From contig NZ_CP011390.1 in the NCBI RefSeq assembly GCF_001644645.1, positions 3,778,001 to 3,842,000 on the forward strand: a stretch of 64,000 nucleotides of DNA. Direction: 5' to 3'. Position 1 is the first letter of the stretch. Every line of letters begins with the position of its first letter. This DNA is from Flavisolibacter tropicus. GTDB taxonomy: Bacteria > Bacteroidota > Bacteroidia > Chitinophagales > Chitinophagaceae. A model generated the notes under the pieces. It was given only the letters and a program-made list of their open reading frames with translations. It made no database searches and was not told where the DNA came from. Positions 13,821-41,245 of this stretch are shown piece after piece. The translations under genes were made by a program, and so were the position numbers.

Positions 13821-14273
13821 ATGCGTAAAGAAATTAACAACATTCACTTCCACTACCTAACCTCACGCTTTCATTTCACTAATCGCACCCAGCTTAAAGC
13901 CTACCTTAACAGGGTAGCTAAAAGAGAAAAACACACAATAGATACCATTAACTACATCTTTTGTGATGACGCTTACCTCTTAGAGATAAATAAACAATAC
14001 CTTAAACACGACACCTATACTGACATTGTAACCTTTCAGCTCAACCTGAAAGGAGAGGCTCTGCTTTCCGACGTTTACATAAGTGTGGAAAGAGTGAAGG
14101 AAAACGCCCTACAACACAACACTACCTTTACCCATGAGCTTCACCGTGTGATCTTTCATGGACTATTACACCTCTGCGGGTACAAAGACAAGAGTAAAGC
14201 TGATAAAGATGAGATGCGCAGACAAGAAGACAAGTGCTTAAACAACTACTTTGTTCCACGTGGAACCAATTAA
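13821..14273 (+). CDS. ybeY: Endoribonuclease YbeY (16S rRNA maturation)
   Basis: Zinc-dependent RNase acting in 16S rRNA 3'-end maturation and ribosome quality control. The metal motif H-x3-H-x5-H is visible in HRVIFHGLLHLCGY (about residues 122-135). 150 aa, normal length. The last codons (FVPRGTN) are encoded by a parS-like palindrome, so the gene end and a putative ParB site are superimposed. It is divergent from feoA, with only 60 bases between. Confidence 0.93.
   Translation: MRKEINNIHFHYLTSRFHFTNRTQLKAYLNRVAKREKHTIDTINYIFCDDAYLLEINKQYLKHDTYTDIVTFQLNLKGEALLSDVYISVERVKENALQHNTTFTHELHRVIFHGLLHLCGYKDKSKADKDEMRRQEDKCLNNYFVPRGTN
14252..14267. promoter_or_regulatory. parS-like ParB binding site 1
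   Basis: TGTTCCACGTGGAACC contains the perfect 14-bp palindrome GTTCCACGTGGAAC. It matches the bacterial parS consensus TGTTNCACGTGNAACA in all but the last base. It lies within the last codons of ybeY. Confidence 0.75.
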
Positions 14274-14311: not shown

Positions 14312-14327
14312 TGTTCCACGTGGAACT
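14312..14327. promoter_or_regulatory. parS-like ParB binding site 2
   Basis: TGTTCCACGTGGAACT, the same 14-bp palindrome, lies exactly 60 bases after site 1 in the ybeY-mnmG spacer. Two perfect copies so close together argue against chance. Confidence 0.78.
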
Positions 14328-14383: not shown

Positions 14384-16246
14384 ATGTTTCAAGCTTATGA
14401 TATAATAGTGGTAGGTGCCGGTCATGCCGGTTGTGAAGCCGCCGCAGCTGCTGCCAATATGGGCTCAAAAGTGTTACTGGTAACCATGAACATGCAAACC
14501 ATAGCACAGATGAGTTGTAACCCTGCCATGGGAGGAATAGCAAAAGGACAAATAGTTAGAGAAATAGATGCCTTAGGAGGTTACTCAGGTATAGTATCCG
14601 ATGCCTCTATGATTCAGTTTCGTATGCTGAACCGTTCAAAGGGACCCGCTATGTGGAGTCCTAGAACACAGAACGATCGTATGCTCTTTGCACAGAAGTG
14701 GAGAGAGATGTTAGAGAATACGCCCAATGTAGACTTCTACCAAGATATGGTAAGAGAACTGGTTGTAGAGAATAACAAAGTAACAGGGGTTGTAACAGGG
14801 CTAGGTCATACTATAAAGGCCAAAGCTGTAGTATTAACCAATGGAACTTTTTTAAATGGGGTTATCCATATAGGGGAGAAGCGATTAGGTGGAGGCCGTG
14901 TAGCAGAAAGAGCTGCACAAGGATTAACAGAGCAATTAGTTAGTCTAGGCTTTGAAAGCGACCGTTTAAAAACAGGTACACCTCCAAGAGTAGATGGACG
15001 TTCTTTGGACTATTCTAAAATGGAAGAGCAAAAAGGGGATGAGGAGATAGGTAGCTTTTCTTACTTAGATGTAGAGCGTCCAAAAGAACAGCGAAGCTGC
15101 TGGATCACTTATACTAATCAAGAAGTACATGATTTATTAAAGACCGGCTTTGATCGCAGCCCTATGTTTACGGGAAGAATAGAAGGCGTGGGTCCTCGCT
15201 ATTGTCCTAGTATAGAAGATAAGATCAACCGCTTTGCTGAAAGAGACCGTCATCAGCTATTTGTAGAACCAGAAGGTTGGAATACGGTGGAGATCTATGT
15301 AAATGGTTTCTCTACATCCCTTCCAGAAGAAGTACAATATGAAGCGCTGCGTAAAGTGCAAGGCTTTGAGAATGTACGGTTCTTCCGTCCGGGTTATGCT
15401 ATTGAATACGACTTCTTTCCACCTACACAGTTGAGCTATACCCTAGAAACCAAGGCTATTGAAAACTTATTCTTTGCAGGCCAGATAAATGGCACAACAG
15501 GATATGAAGAAGCTGCATGTCAAGGATTGATGGCAGGTATCAATGCACATCAAAAAGTGATCAATGATGCTCCCTTAATCTTAAAGCGCAGTGAAGCATA
15601 TATCGGTGTATTAATTGATGACCTGATTTCAAAAGGTACGCAAGAGCCTTACCGCATGTTTACCTCACGAGCAGAATTCAGAACTCTTTTACGCCAGGAC
15701 AATGCAGACTTGCGCTTAACTGAGACGAGCTATCGTATGGGCTTGGCAACAGAGGGCCGAATGCAAAAGATGCTGAAAAAGAGGAGAGAAGTGGAAGAAG
15801 TAAAAACCATATTGAGCACTACGGCGATGGAACCAGCAGAAATAAATCCCTTCTTTGAAAGCATTGAAAGCGCGTCTATCAATGAAAAACAAAAGCTGGA
15901 GAAAATCATATTGCGCCCCAACGTACAGCTGCATGATATCATGAAGCAGGTGCCTAAAGTAGAAGAAGCCTTGAAAGGATATGAAGAAGAAGCTGTAGAG
16001 CAAGCTGAGATCCAGGTGAAGTACCAGGTATATATAGATAAAGAAAAAGAACTGGTGAACAGGATGAGTCAGATGGAGAACCTGGCCATACCTGAACATT
16101 TTGACTACAAACGCATTATAGCCTTGGGCGCAGAAGCGAGAGAAAAACTAACAAAGGCTAAACCAAGAACACTTGGTCAGGCCAGCCGGATCTCTGGAAT
16201 TAATCCAAGTGATGTACAGATACTGATGATTTATATGGGGAGGTAG
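14384..16246 (+). CDS. mnmG: tRNA uridine-5-carboxymethylaminomethyl modification enzyme
   Basis: FAD-binding partner of MnmE that modifies U34 of several tRNAs. N-terminal FAD motif GAGHAGCEAAAAAA, then SCNPAMGGIAKGQIVREIDALGG, the ATG-family motif LKTGTPPR and GTTGYEEAACQG. A C-terminal helical domain binds MnmE and tRNA (about 540-620). Full length (620 aa). In many bacteria gidA/mnmG lies near the replication origin and parAB, consistent with the two parS-like sites just upstream. Confidence 0.96.
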   Translation: MFQAYDIIVVGAGHAGCEAAAAAANMGSKVLLVTMNMQTIAQMSCNPAMGGIAKGQIVREIDALGGYSGIVSDASMIQFRMLNRSKGPAMWSPRTQNDRMLFAQKWREMLENTPNVDFYQDMVRELVVENNKVTGVVTGLGHTIKAKAVVLTNGTFLNGVIHIGEKRLGGGRVAERAAQGLTEQLVSLGFESDRLKTGTPPRVDGRSLDYSKMEEQKGDEEIGSFSYLDVERPKEQRSCWITYTNQEVHDLLKTGFDRSPMFTGRIEGVGPRYCPSIEDKINRFAERDRHQLFVEPEGWNTVEIYVNGFSTSLPEEVQYEALRKVQGFENVRFFRPGYAIEYDFFPPTQLSYTLETKAIENLFFAGQINGTTGYEEAACQGLMAGINAHQKVINDAPLILKRSEAYIGVLIDDLISKGTQEPYRMFTSRAEFRTLLRQDNADLRLTETSYRMGLATEGRMQKMLKKRREVEEVKTILSTTAMEPAEINPFFESIESASINEKQKLEKIILRPNVQLHDIMKQVPKVEEALKGYEEEAVEQAEIQVKYQVYIDKEKELVNRMSQMENLAIPEHFDYKRIIALGAEAREKLTKAKPRTLGQASRISGINPSDVQILMIYMGR

Positions 16247-26154: not shown

Positions 26155-27305
26155 TTGTCGACAATACAAATACAATCGAAACTACCGACAGTAGGCACAA
26201 CGATATTTACCCTAATGAGTTCACTAGCGGTAAAGCACAATGCTATTAACCTGGGTCAAGGCTTTCCGGACTTTGCCATGAGTGAAGAATTAATAGCACT
26301 GGTTAATGAAGCCATGATTAGCGGTGCTAACCAATATGCTCACATGAATGGTTATTTACCACTCAGAGAAACGCTGGCAGAAAAAGTACAATCGCTGTAT
26401 CATACCATCATTAATCCGGATACACAAATTACAGTAACGCCTGGAGGAACCTATGCCTTATACACCGCAATGACCACTGTATTGCAACCAGGGGATGAAG
26501 TGATTGTTTTTGAACCAGCGTATGATAGCTATATACCTGCTATTGAGCTGAATGGTGCAAAAGCTGTTACGATTGAACTAAATTTTCCGGATTATTCGAT
26601 AGATTGGAATGTAGTGCGAAGTAAACTTACTGATCGCACACGCATGATTGTCATTAACTCTCCACACAATCCCACAGGTGCTGTTTTAAGTAAGCAGGAT
26701 ATTGATGAATTGCAAGCTATTACAAAAGATACTAACATACTTATCCTTAGTGATGAAGTGTATGAACACTTAATCTTTGATGGATTGACGCATGAAAGTA
26801 TTTTGAAGTATCCAGCCTTGTTGGAAAGAAGCTTTGTATGCTTTTCGTTTGGAAAAGTATATCACTGTACAGGCTGGAAAATGGGATACTGTATTTCTGC
26901 GCCTCTGTTAATGCAGGAATTTAGAAAAGTACATCAGTTTAATTGTTTTAGCTGCGATACGCCTAAACAAGTAGCATTGGCCCATTTTCTAAAAAGAAAG
27001 AGAATTATTTGGAACTAGGTGCCTTGCTACAACAAAAACGTGACTACTTCCAAGATTTAATGCATCAAACCAAGTTGAAACCTTTACCCAGTCATGGTAG
27101 TTATTTTCAAACGTACTCCTATGCAGATGTGAGTAATGAAACAGAAAAGGTGTTTGCCATTCGTTTAACCGAACAATTTGGCGTAGCTACTATTCCTGTA
27201 TCGGCTTTTTATCAACAGGAAGTAAACAACCAGGTGTTGCGCTTTTGCTTTGCTAAAAAAGAAGCCACATTAGAAGCAGCCGTTGAACGACTGGTAAAAC
27301 TCTAA
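26155..27305 (+). pseudogene. Methionine aminotransferase-like PLP enzyme, interrupted by a frameshift
   Basis: Class I/II aminotransferase related to methionine (keto-methylthiobutyrate) aminotransferases: NLGQGFPDF, the NSPHNPTGAV motif, SDEVYEHL, and the PLP lysine in SFGKVYHCTGWKMGYC. The first frame (TTG start at 26155) stops after VALAHFLKRKR. The second, from about 26990, continues with ENYLELGALLQQKRDYF to a stop at 27303-27305. Adding one A to the AAAAA run at 26991-26995 gives an uninterrupted 384 codons. The break may be a real mutation or a sequencing error. Confidence 0.85.
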
Positions 27306-27809: not shown

Positions 27810-28823
27810 TTAAATCAAACCAGCTTTTTCACTGATCTCCAACATGCGATCCAATGATTTTTTGGCTTGTATCCGCAAACTTTCCTCCATCAATACTTCA
27901 GGTTGCTCGTATTTCATGCATAAATACACCTTCTCGAGCGTATTTCTCTTCATGTGGGGACAATCATTACATGCACAGCTATTGTCCGGTGGAGCGGGTA
28001 TAAATGTCTTTCCGGGGGCCTGCTTCACCATCTGGTGGATTATGCCCGCTTCGGTGGCCACAATGAACTCTTTTTCTTCACTTTTCTTCACATAGGCCAA
28101 CAACTGAGTGGTAGACCCGATAAAATCAGCAATACGCAGTACCGGTTCTTCACATTCTGGGTGAGCGATCAACTTAGCCTGTGGATGGCGAACCTTTAAG
28201 CGTGTGATCTTTTCCAGGCTAAAGATCTCGTGTACCATACAGGCACCATTCCAAAGTAGCATATCTCTACCTGTGGTACGGTTTATCCAGCCGCCCAGGT
28301 TTTTATCCGGTGCAAAGATGATCTTTTGATCCTTGGGGAAGCTATCCACAATAGCCTTTGCATTGCTGGATGTACAAATGACATCAGTAAGAGCCTTTAT
28401 ACCAGCTGAACAATTGATATAAGAGATTACTATATGATCGGGGTGCTGTTCGCGGAACTTTTTAAACAGCGGCGGTGGACAACTCTCACTTAAAGAGCAA
28501 CCCGCTTTCAGATCGGGGATCACCACTTTCTTGGAGGGGTTGAGGATCTTGGCGGTCTCAGCCATAAAATGCACACCAGCAAACACTATCATGTCGGCAT
28601 CTGTTTGTGCCGCCTTTTGCGCCAGCCCCAGGCTATCCCCAATATAATCGGCTATATCCTGAATATCTGGCTCCTGGTACAGGTGCGCCAGGATAATGGC
28701 GTTTTTTTCTTTTTTCAATTTTTCGATTTCTGCAAAAAGATCCAGCGTGGGGTCTATGTCCACATCCAAAAATCCTTTCTCTTGAACATCGTTAAATGCA
28801 GCTGTTAACATTTCCGTATCCAT
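27810..28823 (-). CDS. nadA: Quinolinate synthase A
   Basis: [4Fe-4S] enzyme condensing iminoaspartate with dihydroxyacetone phosphate to quinolinate in NAD synthesis. The [41 protein letters not shown] and [12 protein letters not shown] segments carry the substrate and cluster ligands. 337 aa, normal. nadB and nadC are not nearby. Its promoter region coincides with the putative oriC. Confidence 0.95.
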
Positions 28824-29388
28824 ATAATAACTAATAATATTCTATAATTTTTAAATAAACCCTATTATTATTAGGGCTGTGGATTAGTGGATAACCTCGA
28901 TTTTAATTTTTAGTACTTGCAAAATTGATGCAGTTATTCACACTTGTTCCCCAGTTGTTCACAGCAAAGGTATTAATCCATAGGGCATTAGGCGTGGTTT
29001 TTCACACAGATGTGAATTTGAGGGAAAGAATAAGTTTTTGAAATTTTGGTTTTTGCAAACATGTGAATTGAGGTCTAATAAATTGAGAGAAACACACAAC
29101 CGGGAGGGGTTGATCGGTTGGTCGAAAATTTCTTTTCTAAGAATTCACGTTTCACTACCCGTTCCACAGGCAGTTATTCACATTTTAAGTGGGAAATCCA
29201 CAGGGAAAGGTGAATTTTGAGAGTAGGACAGGAGCTCAAAACTTTAAAACGCTCTTAAAACTGTTATCCACGGTCTTGAATTCCCACTAAACCCTTGATT
29301 AATATGGTTTAGAGGGGTTTTCCACAATTTGTGGATATAGTCAATTCCCCTATTTTTGCCCACTACTATAAAATTAGAAACTCCACCT
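28824..29388. other. Putative chromosomal replication origin (oriC)
   Basis: A 565-bp non-coding region between divergent nadA and ppiD. Two exact TTATNCACA boxes: TTATTCACA at 28934-28942 and 29174-29182, embedded in an identical 13-mer 240 bases apart. Boxes with one mismatch: 28878-28886, 28886-28894 (both reversed), 28955-28963 (TTGTTCACA), 28998-29006 (TTTTTCACA), 29264-29272 (TTATCCACG), 29318-29326 (TTTTCCACA) and 29330-29338 (reversed). A very AT-rich stretch (28824-28875) flanks the boxes, like an unwinding element. dnaN lies about 11 kb to the right and parS-like sites about 14.6 kb to the left. Confidence 0.7.
29328..29358 (+). promoter_or_regulatory. Promoter of ppiD overlapping a DnaA-box pair
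   Basis: TTTG (29328-29331), 19 bases, then TATTTTTG (29351-29358): an exact fit to the Bacteroidota -33/-7 pattern, 30 bases before the ppiD ATG. The -33 element lies inside the inverted DnaA-like boxes at 29318-29338. Confidence 0.7.
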
Positions 29389-31518
29389 ATGTCAGTCATT
29401 CAGCAAATTAGAGACAAGTATGCGCGTTGGGCAGTGGTTGCTATTGCCGTTTCGCTATTGGGTTTTATCATGATGGATGCCTTCTCGGGCCGCTCCGGAT
29501 TTGGCCGTAATTCTACTACTATTGGTAAGATCAATGGAAAAAAGATCGACTTCCTTGATTTTGACCGTAAAGTAAAGAGCCAGGAAGAAATGTATAAACA
29601 ACAAGGGTACGATATGGGTGAAGCCGGTCGTCAGCAGGTGTTGGAAAGTGTTTGGGAAGGTGAAATTTCTCAGCAGTTGATGCAAGACCAATTTGATGAG
29701 CTGGGTATGACCATTGGTAAAAAAGAGTTGACCGACATGTTGTTTGGTAATAACCCACCCCAAGATCTGAAACAACGTTTTACAGATCCAAATACTGGTG
29801 TGTATAATGCTGCAGCCGCACAACAAGCTATTAATGAATTAAGAAAGAGTGCAAAGCCAGAAGACAAAGCCCAATTCAATGAATACCTGGGTAGTTTGGA
29901 ATTTGGCCGTATGGTGGAGAAGTATACCTCTTTATTAACTAATAGTACCTACTTCCCTAAATGGTTTGTAGAAAAGCAAAATGTAGATAATAGTTTATTA
30001 GGTAGCGCTTCTTTTGTTACTGTTCCTTATGCTTCAATTGTTGATAGCGCTGTGAAAGTGAGTGATGATGATATTAAAAAATACATCAACGAGCATAAAA
30101 AGGATTTTGAACAAAAAGATGAAACTCGTTCTATTAATTATGTAGTGTTCAGTGCAGCACCTACTGCTGCTGATACAGCTGCTACATTAGCTCAAGTAGA
30201 AGCGTTGAAAGCACAATTTGCTTCAGCTACTGACCCTGGTTCATTTGTAACACAGCAAGGATCTACTATTCCTTATTATGATGCTTATGTTGGTAAGTCA
30301 AAAATTCAGGTACCTAATAAAGATACCATCGTTGCCCTGCCTAAAGGTGCTGTGTATGGGCCTTACCAGGATGCTTCCAGCTTTGTAGTGGCAAGAATGG
30401 TTGATGAAAAAGTAATGCCGGATTCAGCGAAAGTGCGTCACATTCTAGTTCAAACGCACAACCCTCAAACTGGCCAGGTAATGTTAGATGATAGCACAGC
30501 GAAAAAGCGTATTGACTCAATATTCCTAGCTCTTAAAGGTGGTGCCAATTTCGACACTTTGGTTGCACGTTTCTCAGATGACGCTGGCAGCAAAGAAAAC
30601 GGTGGTCTTTACGATTACTTCCCACAGGGAAAAATGGTAAAAGCATTTAACGATTTTGCTTTTGAAAAGCCAGTAGGTTCTCGTGAAATAGTAAAAACAG
30701 AATTTGGTTATCACCTGATTGAAGTATTAGGGCAAAAAGGTCAGGAACCTCATTATAAAATTGCTTACCTGTCTAAAGCAATTGTTCCAAGTTCTGAAAC
30801 AGATGCAGCTGCTGCCAATGCTGCTAACCAGTTTGCTGGTGAAAGCACAAACTTGAAAGCATTCAATGCTAATTATGATAAAAACCTGAAAGCAAAAGGT
30901 ATCAATAAACTGGTAGCTCAGGATATCCGTCCAATGGATTATCAAATTACAGGTGTAGGTGCAAGCCGCCAAATGGTGAAGGCTATTTTTGAAGCTGACA
31001 AAGGTGATGTGATCCAGCCAGAGCGTATAGGTGATAATTATGTAGTAGCTGTAGTAACAGACGTAAACGAAGCAGGTGTACAAAGCGTAAACCATGCACG
31101 TGCCACTGTAGAACCTATTTTGCGCAATCAAAAGAAAGCAGCCCAGATCAAACAGCGCTTAGGCAATGTTACTACGCTGGAAACTGCTTCTACGGTATTG
31201 GGTCAACCAATCCAAAATGTTGATAGCTTACATTTTGCAGGACCAAACAGTGCACTGGGCTTTGAAAGCAAAGTAATTGGTGCCGTATTCAATGCAGCTA
31301 ACAAGGGTAAAGTAGTAGCTGATGCTATTGAAGGTCAGTCAGGTGTGTTTATAGTACGTGTAAACAACACAGCTACTGCGCCAATTGGTAATGCTAACGT
31401 AGATGAGCAGCGCCGTATGATGGTGATGCAAGCACGTCAGGCAATGATGTACCGCTCGCCAATTGAAGCCTTGAAGCAAAATGCTGATATTAAAGACAAC
31501 CGCGCTAAGTTTTATTAA
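29389..31518 (+). CDS. PpiD/SurA-like membrane-anchored peptidyl-prolyl isomerase
   Basis: A periplasmic folding factor for exported proteins, anchored in the inner membrane. Start at ATG 29389 (MSVIQQIRDKYARWAV), supported by the promoter upstream. A single membrane segment (about 14-33) is followed by a SurA_N-like domain, a parvulin PPIase domain (about 335-440; VRHILVQTH, GANFDTLVARFSDD, FGYHLIEV) and a second, degenerate parvulin-like region. About 709 aa, typical of the Bacteroidota family. Confidence 0.93.
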   Translation: MSVIQQIRDKYARWAVVAIAVSLLGFIMMDAFSGRSGFGRNSTTIGKINGKKIDFLDFDRKVKSQEEMYKQQGYDMGEAGRQQVLESVWEGEISQQLMQDQFDELGMTIGKKELTDMLFGNNPPQDLKQRFTDPNTGVYNAAAAQQAINELRKSAKPEDKAQFNEYLGSLEFGRMVEKYTSLLTNSTYFPKWFVEKQNVDNSLLGSASFVTVPYASIVDSAVKVSDDDIKKYINEHKKDFEQKDETRSINYVVFSAAPTAADTAATLAQVEALKAQFASATDPGSFVTQQGSTIPYYDAYVGKSKIQVPNKDTIVALPKGAVYGPYQDASSFVVARMVDEKVMPDSAKVRHILVQTHNPQTGQVMLDDSTAKKRIDSIFLALKGGANFDTLVARFSDDAGSKENGGLYDYFPQGKMVKAFNDFAFEKPVGSREIVKTEFGYHLIEVLGQKGQEPHYKIAYLSKAIVPSSETDAAAANAANQFAGESTNLKAFNANYDKNLKAKGINKLVAQDIRPMDYQITGVGASRQMVKAIFEADKGDVIQPERIGDNYVVAVVTDVNEAGVQSVNHARATVEPILRNQKKAAQIKQRLGNVTTLETASTVLGQPIQNVDSLHFAGPNSALGFESKVIGAVFNAANKGKVVADAIEGQSGVFIVRVNNTATAPIGNANVDEQRRMMVMQARQAMMYRSPIEALKQNADIKDNRAKFY

Positions 31519-40129: not shown

Positions 40130-41245
40130 CTATTGGTTTAACATCAATGGCATTACCAGCATTAGCAGGTCTTCATTTTCTTCAGCTTCAATCGGACGTA
40201 AAATACCAGCCTTAGTAGGGGTAGATAATTCAATACGCACCTCATCACCTACAGAAGCGCTTAGCATTTCAATCAGGAAACGGGCATTAAAAGCAATGGT
40301 CAGGTCTTCACCGTCGTACTGGCACTTCATGCGCTCATTACCTTCAAAAGAAAAATCCACATCCTGTGCAGCCAAGCCTAACTCGCTACCGCTGATGTTC
40401 AGGGCAACTTGGTTGGTGCTTTTGTTACTAAATACGCTTACACGGCGCAGTGCGCTTTGAAACTGTGATTTGTTAACGATCAGCTTATATGGATTATCAG
40501 CAGGTATTACCACTTTATAATCAGGGAAACGGGCATCAATCAATCGACAGCTCATCTGCGTAGTACCGTGTTTTACAAACAGGTGATTGCTGTTGTAGTT
40601 GATGATGATCTCATCTTCGTTATCAGGTAATGCCGACTTTAAAAGATTCAAAGGCTTACGAGGTACAATGAAAGAATCCTGGCGTGGGCAGGCTACATCG
40701 GTTCTTTTATAACGTACCAGGCGATGCGCATCGGTAGCTACAAACTGAATGGCGTCTTTGTTGAGTTCAAAGAAAACACCGGTCATAGCTGGGCGTAAGT
40801 CATCATTACTAACAGCAAACAAAGTTTTATTGATAGCCGTTACCAGCGCCGATGAGGGCATGGTAAAAGAAGTGGTATCGTCAGCAGCAGGCTCTTTCGG
40901 GAAGTTGTCTGGGTTTTCGCCCATTACTTTATACTTACCATTATCAGAGGTGATCTCAATACCAAAGTTCTTGTCAATACTGAAAGTCAATGGCTGATCA
41001 GGAATATTCTTTAACGAATCCATGAGGATCTTGGCCGGAATACACACTTTACCGCTTTCACGGGCTTCAATATCTAGTTGGATACGCATTACCGTTTCCA
41101 GGTCGGTAGCCACTACAGTTAGCTTACCTCCTTCTACTTCAAACAGGAAATCTTCTAAGATCGGTAATACCGTATTGGCGTTGATAACGCCAGATATTTG
41201 TTGCAATTGCTTCAGCAATTGGGAGGAGGAAACAATAAATTTCAT
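40130..41245 (-). CDS. dnaN: DNA polymerase III beta clamp
   Basis: The sliding clamp that tethers the replicative polymerase. 371 residues in three repeated beta-clamp domains. N-terminus MKFIVSSSQLLKQLQQISGV, central QFVATDAHRL, and the C-terminal VMPLMLNQ (equivalent to E. coli PMRL). Monocistronic, with its own terminator. A single TGTGGAAAA (DnaA-box-like) lies upstream at 41314-41322. dnaA and recF are not adjacent, as is common in this phylum. Confidence 0.96.
   Translation of the reverse strand: MKFIVSSSQLLKQLQQISGVINANTVLPILEDFLFEVEGGKLTVVATDLETVMRIQLDIEARESGKVCIPAKILMDSLKNIPDQPLTFSIDKNFGIEITSDNGKYKVMGENPDNFPKEPAADDTTSFTMPSSALVTAINKTLFAVSNDDLRPAMTGVFFELNKDAIQFVATDAHRLVRYKRTDVACPRQDSFIVPRKPLNLLKSALPDNEDEIIINYNSNHLFVKHGTTQMSCRLIDARFPDYKVVIPADNPYKLIVNKSQFQSALRRVSVFSNKSTNQVALNISGSELGLAAQDVDFSFEGNERMKCQYDGEDLTIAFNARFLIEMLSASVGDEVRIELSTPTKAGILRPIEAEENEDLLMLVMPLMLNQ

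Follow-up and report, generated by a model that had tools for sequence, protein, structure and literature searches.

The spacer between nadA and ppiD is, on our reading, the chromosomal replication origin (oriC) of Flavisolibacter tropicus, distant from dnaA; we place the probability of this at roughly 0.93, with initiation itself as a prediction. The spacer and its relatives display (i) a dense cluster of DnaA boxes, (ii) a module with an ordered anatomy beside them, (iii) a single copy of that module in the genome, (iv) conservation, (v) persistence of the module beside other genes, and (vi) a nearby switch in GC skew. A preliminary description of this DNA had proposed a putative oriC at the same place, a proposal that is supported at the sequence level by the box density, the boxes kept in relatives, the module, and the skew switch. 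The address and anatomy of the putative origin are well supported, and the location between nadA and ppiD is apparently new as an address in the literature we searched.

The nadA–ppiD spacer and its DnaA boxes

The genome is a single contig of 5,940,863 bp, of which the window (the whole 64,000-nucleotide stretch that was analysed) covers bases 3,778,001–3,842,000. Feature positions below are those of the window unless they are given as chromosomal. The spacer separates two divergent genes, both transcribed outward from it; these genes are listed here together with elements to the right of the module described further on.

27810–28823, minus: nadA, quinolinate synthase, left neighbour (NCBIfam TIGR00550)
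28824–29388: nadA–ppiD spacer, 565 bp, 64.6% AT
28930–28942, plus: 13-mer GCAGTTATTCACA, copy 1, with an exact box at 28934–28942, 72 bp to the right of the module start
28955–28963, plus: DnaA box TTGTTCACA, one base off
28998–29006, plus: DnaA box TTTTTCACA, one base off
29170–29182, plus: 13-mer GCAGTTATTCACA, copy 2, with an exact box at 29174–29182, 240 bp from copy 1
29264–29272, plus: DnaA box TTATCCACG, one base off
29389–31518, plus: ppiD-like peptidyl-prolyl isomerase gene, right neighbour (ATG at 29389)

The ppiD product matches NCBIfam peptidyl-prolyl isomerase (PPIase) families below cut-off, and its relatives bear the name peptidyl-prolyl cis-trans isomerase D. Nine DnaA boxes occur in the spacer. 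Two are exact copies of TTATNCACA on the plus strand (starts 28934 and 29174) and seven are one base off, starting at 28878 (minus), 28886 (minus), 28955, 28998, 29264, 29318, and 29330 (minus). Coordinates and sequence thus agree with the earlier account of a 565-bp spacer carrying two exact boxes in a 13-mer repeated 240 bp apart, and the “at least seven” one-off boxes mentioned there come to exactly seven. No phage record matched the spacer sequence. Among 80 loci with the module, the best ppiD match is that of L241, titled Flaviaesturariibacter, a genus of the Chitinophagaceae according to NCBI (81% over the part covered, with 87% for nadA at the same locus), and nadA reaches up to 88%, in L230, titled Flavisolibacter.

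Beyond nadA, two overlapping plus-strand frames (26155–27018 and 27009–27305) match successive parts of a single methionine aminotransferase family profile and look like a frameshift, real or sequencing-derived.

Density of DnaA boxes and motif controls

The comparison of box density covered 61 stretches, the window among them, which add up to 1,220,000 bases or 20.5% of the genome. In this sample the mean is 0.63 boxes (at most one mismatch) per 550 bp; the spacer holds 9, and the best 550-bp cluster outside it holds 5. Between 3.62 and 3.96 Mb on the chromosome, a span of 340 kb, the next best after the spacer holds 4. The dense cluster between genes that is expected of an oriC is therefore present, and the unusually high density originally reported for this spacer holds across the fifth of the genome sampled.

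Could such a cluster be a chance pile-up of boxes in AT-rich DNA? One-mismatch boxes are common, with 102 in the whole 64-kb window versus 84.9 ± 9.2 expected; as this window-wide enrichment is only mild, the signal is the local cluster. Control motifs also form clusters in the same sample, the best per 550 bp being 5 for the reversed motif and 7, 6, 6, 5, and 19 for five permuted motifs. One of six control motifs thus built a bigger cluster than the DnaA boxes, at another place, because of which cluster size by itself is no proof. Against a chance origin stand the 9 boxes here versus 5 at the next best place in 1.22 Mb, and the conservation of the position across relatives from many genera, detailed below; we give chance a negligible share of the probability. 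The permuted motif in question, ACATNTTAC, occurs 19 times in 550 bp near chromosomal position 2867548 of this genome (L020), perhaps as a tandem repeat.

A candidate unwinding module at the nadA end

The left end of the spacer, directly beside nadA, carries a compact arrangement that was absent from the preliminary description.

28824–28861: AT-rich stretch (89% AT), proposed duplex-unwinding element, from the nadA start codon to the DnaA-trios
28862–28894, plus: whole 33-bp unwinding module
28863–28874, plus: four DnaA-trio-like triplets, 5'-TAT TAT TAT TAG-3', read as 3'-GAT TAT TAT TAT-5' away from the boxes
28874–28877: GC-rich clamp GGGC, leading from the trios to the boxes, its first base being the last base of the final trio
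28878–28886, minus: DnaA box TAATCCACA, the trio-proximal member of a tandem pair
28886–28894, minus: DnaA box TTATCCACT, the second member of the tandem pair, 11 bp from the trios

The unwinding element of Bacillus subtilis likewise includes a GC-rich clamp, and its likeness to the module here extends letter by letter. No 40-mer in the 64-kb window is less stable than that starting at 28821, which bears out the earlier remark on a very AT-rich stretch beside the boxes and provides the adjoining, easily melted DNA expected of an oriC. According to excerpts of PMC8287927, basal unwinding systems were sought as at least three triplets 3'-NAN-5' within 16 bp of a DnaA box; 3'-GAT-5' is the commonest trio, above all beside the box, and tandem boxes occur in 57% of the predicted systems, with a spacing peak at 10–13 bp. 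In the present spacer, four trios are separated from the nearer box by 3 bp and from the other by 11 bp, the trio nearest the box is 3'-GAT-5', and the two boxes (28878–28886 and 28886–28894) stand in tandem on the minus strand. The module at the nadA end is therefore, as judged from its letters, a candidate unwinding system built like that of B. subtilis. A possible second module at the ppiD end (ACTACTAT near 29363) was rejected; by eye it is not kept among 29 loci.

On the model of the B. subtilis unwinding system, DnaA would bind the spacer by filling the tandem boxes at 28878–28894 as well as others farther right. Starting at the tandem pair, DnaA would form a filament that crosses the GC-rich clamp, reaches the trio strand at 28863–28874, and opens the AT-rich stretch at 28824–28861 toward the nadA start. 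Helicase would then be loaded at the opened stretch, allowing two forks to be initiated and to depart, each co-directional with its neighbouring gene, i.e., nadA on the left and ppiD on the right.

Conservation among relatives

Conservation was followed from the flanking genes and from the module. The ppiD search covered 78 genomes, 77 of which matched at E <= 0.001, some in the isomerase domain only. It included 47 genomes of the family (own genome included), of which 43 were compared; G001 (L083), G008, G042, and G045 were left out, having no match or none reaching the ppiD start. In a first family set of 29 genomes (own included), nadA lies divergently beside ppiD in 24, with 4–14 boxes in the spacer, while the remaining five have no nadA within 1.5 kb of ppiD and 0–2 boxes in 800 bp. 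Fourteen further family genomes comprise eight with nadA and 5–9 boxes and six without nadA beside ppiD. Overall, the nadA–ppiD arrangement is found in 32 of 43 family genomes (own included), with 4–14 boxes, and is missing from 11; the retention of boxes in related genomes, which had been suggested as a check, is thereby confirmed. The arrangement is missing from all six genomes compared from other families in the order (out of 31 at the order level), where 0–3 boxes in 1.2 kb were counted.

For the module, the pattern CTAYTAYTAYTANNGNTGTGRATNNGNGGATAA, allowing up to two mismatches, was searched in 147 family genomes, own included. It matches in 68, once in each, and does not match in 79; the reversed control matches in none. 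In the present genome, the genome-wide search returns a single copy. One copy per chromosome and retention in relatives are expected of an oriC, and are seen here with 79 of 147 family genomes having no match to the pattern. The exact form CTAYTAYTAYTANNNNTGTGRATNNNKGGATAA occurs in 86 stretches of public species genomes, compared to approximately 0.02 expected in random sequence of 58% AT. These 86 stretches are not 86 genomes, as one assembly is counted twice, and most matches resemble the F. tropicus family partly by construction, since the pattern was derived from the Chitinophagaceae.

The surroundings of these 86 stretches agree with those of the spacer. A divergent nadA lies within 300 bp of the module in 84, and ppiD lies within 1.3 kb in 60; in 14 others, less than 1.3 kb of DNA is covered, and in the remaining 12 ppiD was not found, although one of these (L262), which contains masked letters, does have a ppiD-like frame. 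The 700 bp from the module hold a median of 8 boxes (range 4–14, n = 74), versus a median of 1 and a maximum of 8 in controls (n = 59). The 36 bp to the left of the module have a median of 92% AT and a minimum of 81% across the 86 relatives, compared to a median of 58% for the loci, and each of the two middle positions of the GC clamp is G in 75 of 86. In 68 of 79 loci there is also a plus-strand box (at most one mismatch) at 70–75 bp from the module start, compared to 0 and 1 at two control offsets; this box is not demanded by the search pattern.

In two records, L245 (titled Beijerinckiaceae) and L189 (titled Flavobacterium), the nadA and ppiD genes that accompany the module resemble those of the Chitinophagaceae; these records may be mislabelled or misbinned.

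The promoter-like site of ppiD and the module beside other genes

Two of the boxes face each other at the right end of the spacer, where they overlap a promoter-like site.

29318–29338: facing DnaA box pair TTTTCCACA-N3-TGTGGATAT, upstream of ppiD, overlapping the promoter-like site
29329–29358, plus: promoter-like site of ppiD, TTG-N19-TATTTTTG

This site we take to be a match to the Bacteroidota -33/-7 consensus; a looser promoter pattern, run without a control, finds a site in 29 of 29 ppiD loci. A TTTTCCACA-like box lies at -110 to -40 of ppiD in 24 of 32 nadA–ppiD spacers versus 2 of 32 at a control offset, and also occurs at ppiD in 5 of 11 genomes without adjacent nadA. DnaA may thus regulate ppiD via the facing pair at 29318–29338, though this is a weaker proposal and, coming from motif positions, a guess.

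These box positions, along with the divergent genes on either side, are also what one would expect if the spacer were a DnaA-regulated divergent promoter region or a datA-like titration cluster, with replication starting elsewhere. We regard this as improbable. Trios and an unstable stretch next to tandem boxes are not expected of a promoter or of a DnaA store, the skew switch lies close to the spacer, and the module is found in the company of other genes in a number of relatives. Of the 11 family genomes without nadA beside ppiD, four (G031, G015, G024, and G018) have no module and seven keep it, namely G034, G033, G017, G039, G030, G029, and, by a relaxed pattern only, G043. Module and boxes persist without ppiD in G030, G034, and G033: in G030, nadA adjoins a module with 15 boxes in 800 bp, a gene for NADH dehydrogenase chain 3 stands on the right, and ppiD is approximately 105 kb away; the right neighbour in G034 and G033 is a Dpp7-like/peptidase S46 gene. 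They persist without nadA in G158, where the left neighbour is another gene, and in L243, one of the two exact stretches that lack nadA, where ppiD is kept. Neither gene adjoins the module of G043 (L142), which has two mismatches, is accompanied by 11 boxes in 800 bp, and is flanked by genes for an ABC transporter and a hydrolase; this is perhaps an origin that swapped both of its neighbours. L194, the other exact stretch without nadA, has dnaN and dnaA on either side of its module and 4 boxes in 700 bp, and G424, from the same phylum and not the same class, has a two-mismatch module that is likewise set between dnaN and dnaA, with 7 boxes in 800 bp. The dnaN–dnaA spacer is the classical place of oriC in textbook knowledge as well as in an excerpt of PMC6669920. 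As it is kept without one or both genes in some relatives, the module is no part of nadA or ppiD.

A relaxed, phylum-wide pattern (two mismatches) matched 17 of 296 genomes, 10 in the family and 7 outside it, with 2 matches for the reversed control. The matches in G377 and G465, with 0 and 2 boxes in 800 bp, look like chance and were set aside. The dnaN–dnaA module of G424 is another of the 7. Four others from outside the family, G234 (L152), G367 (L153), G226 (L154), and G329 (L158), have 5, 6, 5, and 9 boxes per 800 bp, respectively, beside other neighbours, and their modules are candidate origins of other Bacteroidota on this evidence.

We tentatively raise a further possibility, to which we give somewhat less than even odds: the 33-bp module may be an autonomous initiator cassette that stems from a dnaA–dnaN origin and, in the lineage leading to this family, parted intact from dnaA, with nadA and ppiD as exchangeable neighbours. 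If so, oriC could be recognised across much of the family by one short signature, metagenome fragments included, and the facing box pair would place ppiD under DnaA control.

Chromosomal position and GC skew

The spacer lies at 3.807 Mb on the chromosome and dnaA at 1.936 Mb, i.e., 1.87 Mb apart, so that the spacer does not adjoin dnaA as a dnaA–dnaN-type origin does. The other genes and sites named in the preliminary description are nearer, all within 15 kb, as stated there.

14252–14267: parS-like site 1, TGTTCCACGTGGAAC
14312–14327: parS-like site 2, TGTTCCACGTGGAAC
14384–16246: mnmG
40130–41245: dnaN

The genome has only two exact TGTTNCACGTGNAAC sites, which we take to be parS, and each lies 14.5 kb from the spacer. 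When one mismatch is allowed, there are 8 matches versus 9 for the reversed control, so that the pattern is then no commoner than the control.

GC skew was evaluated with a two-break fit to the samples (20.5% of the genome), as distinct from a full cumulative curve. It is mostly negative from approximately 0.9 to 3.7 Mb, near zero or weakly positive from 3.70 to 3.95 Mb, and mostly positive from approximately 3.98 Mb round to 0.8 Mb. The fit places the origin at 3.74 Mb and the terminus at 0.86 Mb; measured from the origin break, the spacer is 66 kb to the right and dnaA is 1.8 Mb away, and by arithmetic the spacer lies approximately 24 kb from the point opposite the fitted terminus. The 5% residual range of the origin break, 3.70–3.76 Mb, leaves the spacer outside. 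Of 200 bootstraps, 174 place the break no more than 150 kb from the spacer and 0 place it that close to dnaA. On the suggestion that a skew minimum should coincide with the spacer, the samples show a switch close by, with the best fit 66 kb off and a 5% range that excludes the spacer.

A rival reading is that oriC lies elsewhere near the skew switch (3.70–3.76 Mb), in line with the best-fit break at 3.74 Mb, or else beside dnaA, with the spacer cluster serving as a secondary site. Just upstream of the dnaA ATG (chromosomal position 1936821), four boxes with at most one mismatch, one of them exact, do occur within 342 bp (1936870–1937211; L056), a grouping that is expected if DnaA controls its own gene. 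We nevertheless consider an origin at either place very unlikely. Elsewhere in the 3.62–3.96 Mb region, clusters do not exceed 4 boxes per 550 bp. The module pattern has a single genomic match and none in the region upstream of dnaA (1936870–1937211), and dnaA is 1.8 Mb from the skew break.

Skew was also fitted in relatives. The 5% range in G034 (520–660 kb) includes its module at 640 kb, with the best fit 1.3 Mb from dnaA, and that in G030 (2.24–2.44 Mb) includes its module at 2.376 Mb, with the best fit 2.1 Mb from dnaA; of 200 bootstraps each, 105 and 129, respectively, put the break no more than 150 kb from the module, which does not separate the module from ppiD. In the same-genus genome G002 (20 stretches), the skew is too weak to place the origin, and the best fit is 729 kb from the module.

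Significance and comparison with known systems

An origin rule of “beside dnaA” would miss by 1.87 Mb in this genome. A signature found once per matching genome, combined with its usual neighbours, should allow the origin to be named in many members of the family, whether their genomes are complete or draft, and a named origin would aid in estimating growth rates from read depth, in analysing replication strands, and in designing oriC plasmids. The module is also a candidate unwinding system in a Bacteroidota origin and is open to direct test.

In the excerpts of PMC4755523, which draw on DoriC, the oriC of Bacteroidetes is commonly far from dnaA. The statement in the preliminary description that oriC in this phylum is often not beside dnaA is therefore already in print, and the distance reported here is not new. 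In the literature we searched, no paper was found to place oriC between nadA and ppiD, and the excerpts of PMC10225481, PMC6323995, PMC13342612, and PMC2768785 hold nothing on this address. DoriC may contain predictions there; its annotations are not always right (PMC13342612, in excerpt). The main text of PMC8287927 has no words beginning with Bacteroid, Chitinophag, Flavobacter, Sphingobacter, or Cytophaga.

DnaA-titration loci such as E. coli datA resemble the nadA–ppiD spacer in holding several DnaA boxes in one spacer; they are not known to have the trio and unstable-stretch arrangement, and are not expected at a skew switch.

The predicted oriC of Prevotella intermedia chromosome 1 (PMC4755523) shares with the present spacer a box cluster that is distant from dnaA, and lies at a skew switch, of which the present genome has one nearby; the trio module and the conserved neighbours described here are not named in the excerpts of that paper. 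Melioribacter roseus, from the Bacteroidetes/Chlorobi group, has a dnaA–dnaN origin (PMC3534657, in excerpt), which likewise consists of a box cluster in a short spacer and differs in adjoining dnaA and dnaN. A close parallel in layout is with the incC region of the B. subtilis oriC and its basal unwinding system (excerpts of PMC6669920 and PMC8287927), which share with the module tandem boxes followed by trios, and further boxes on the other side. The nearest trio is 3'-GAT-5' in both, and the 11-bp spacing here falls within the 10–13 bp peak (PMC8287927, in excerpt). Unlike the B. subtilis origin, the spacer lies between nadA and ppiD and not between dnaA and dnaN, 1.87 Mb from dnaA, and none of its nine boxes is an exact TTATCCACA. 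The dnaN–dnaA spacers of L194 and G424, finally, contain the same type of module as the nadA–ppiD spacer, set between other neighbours.
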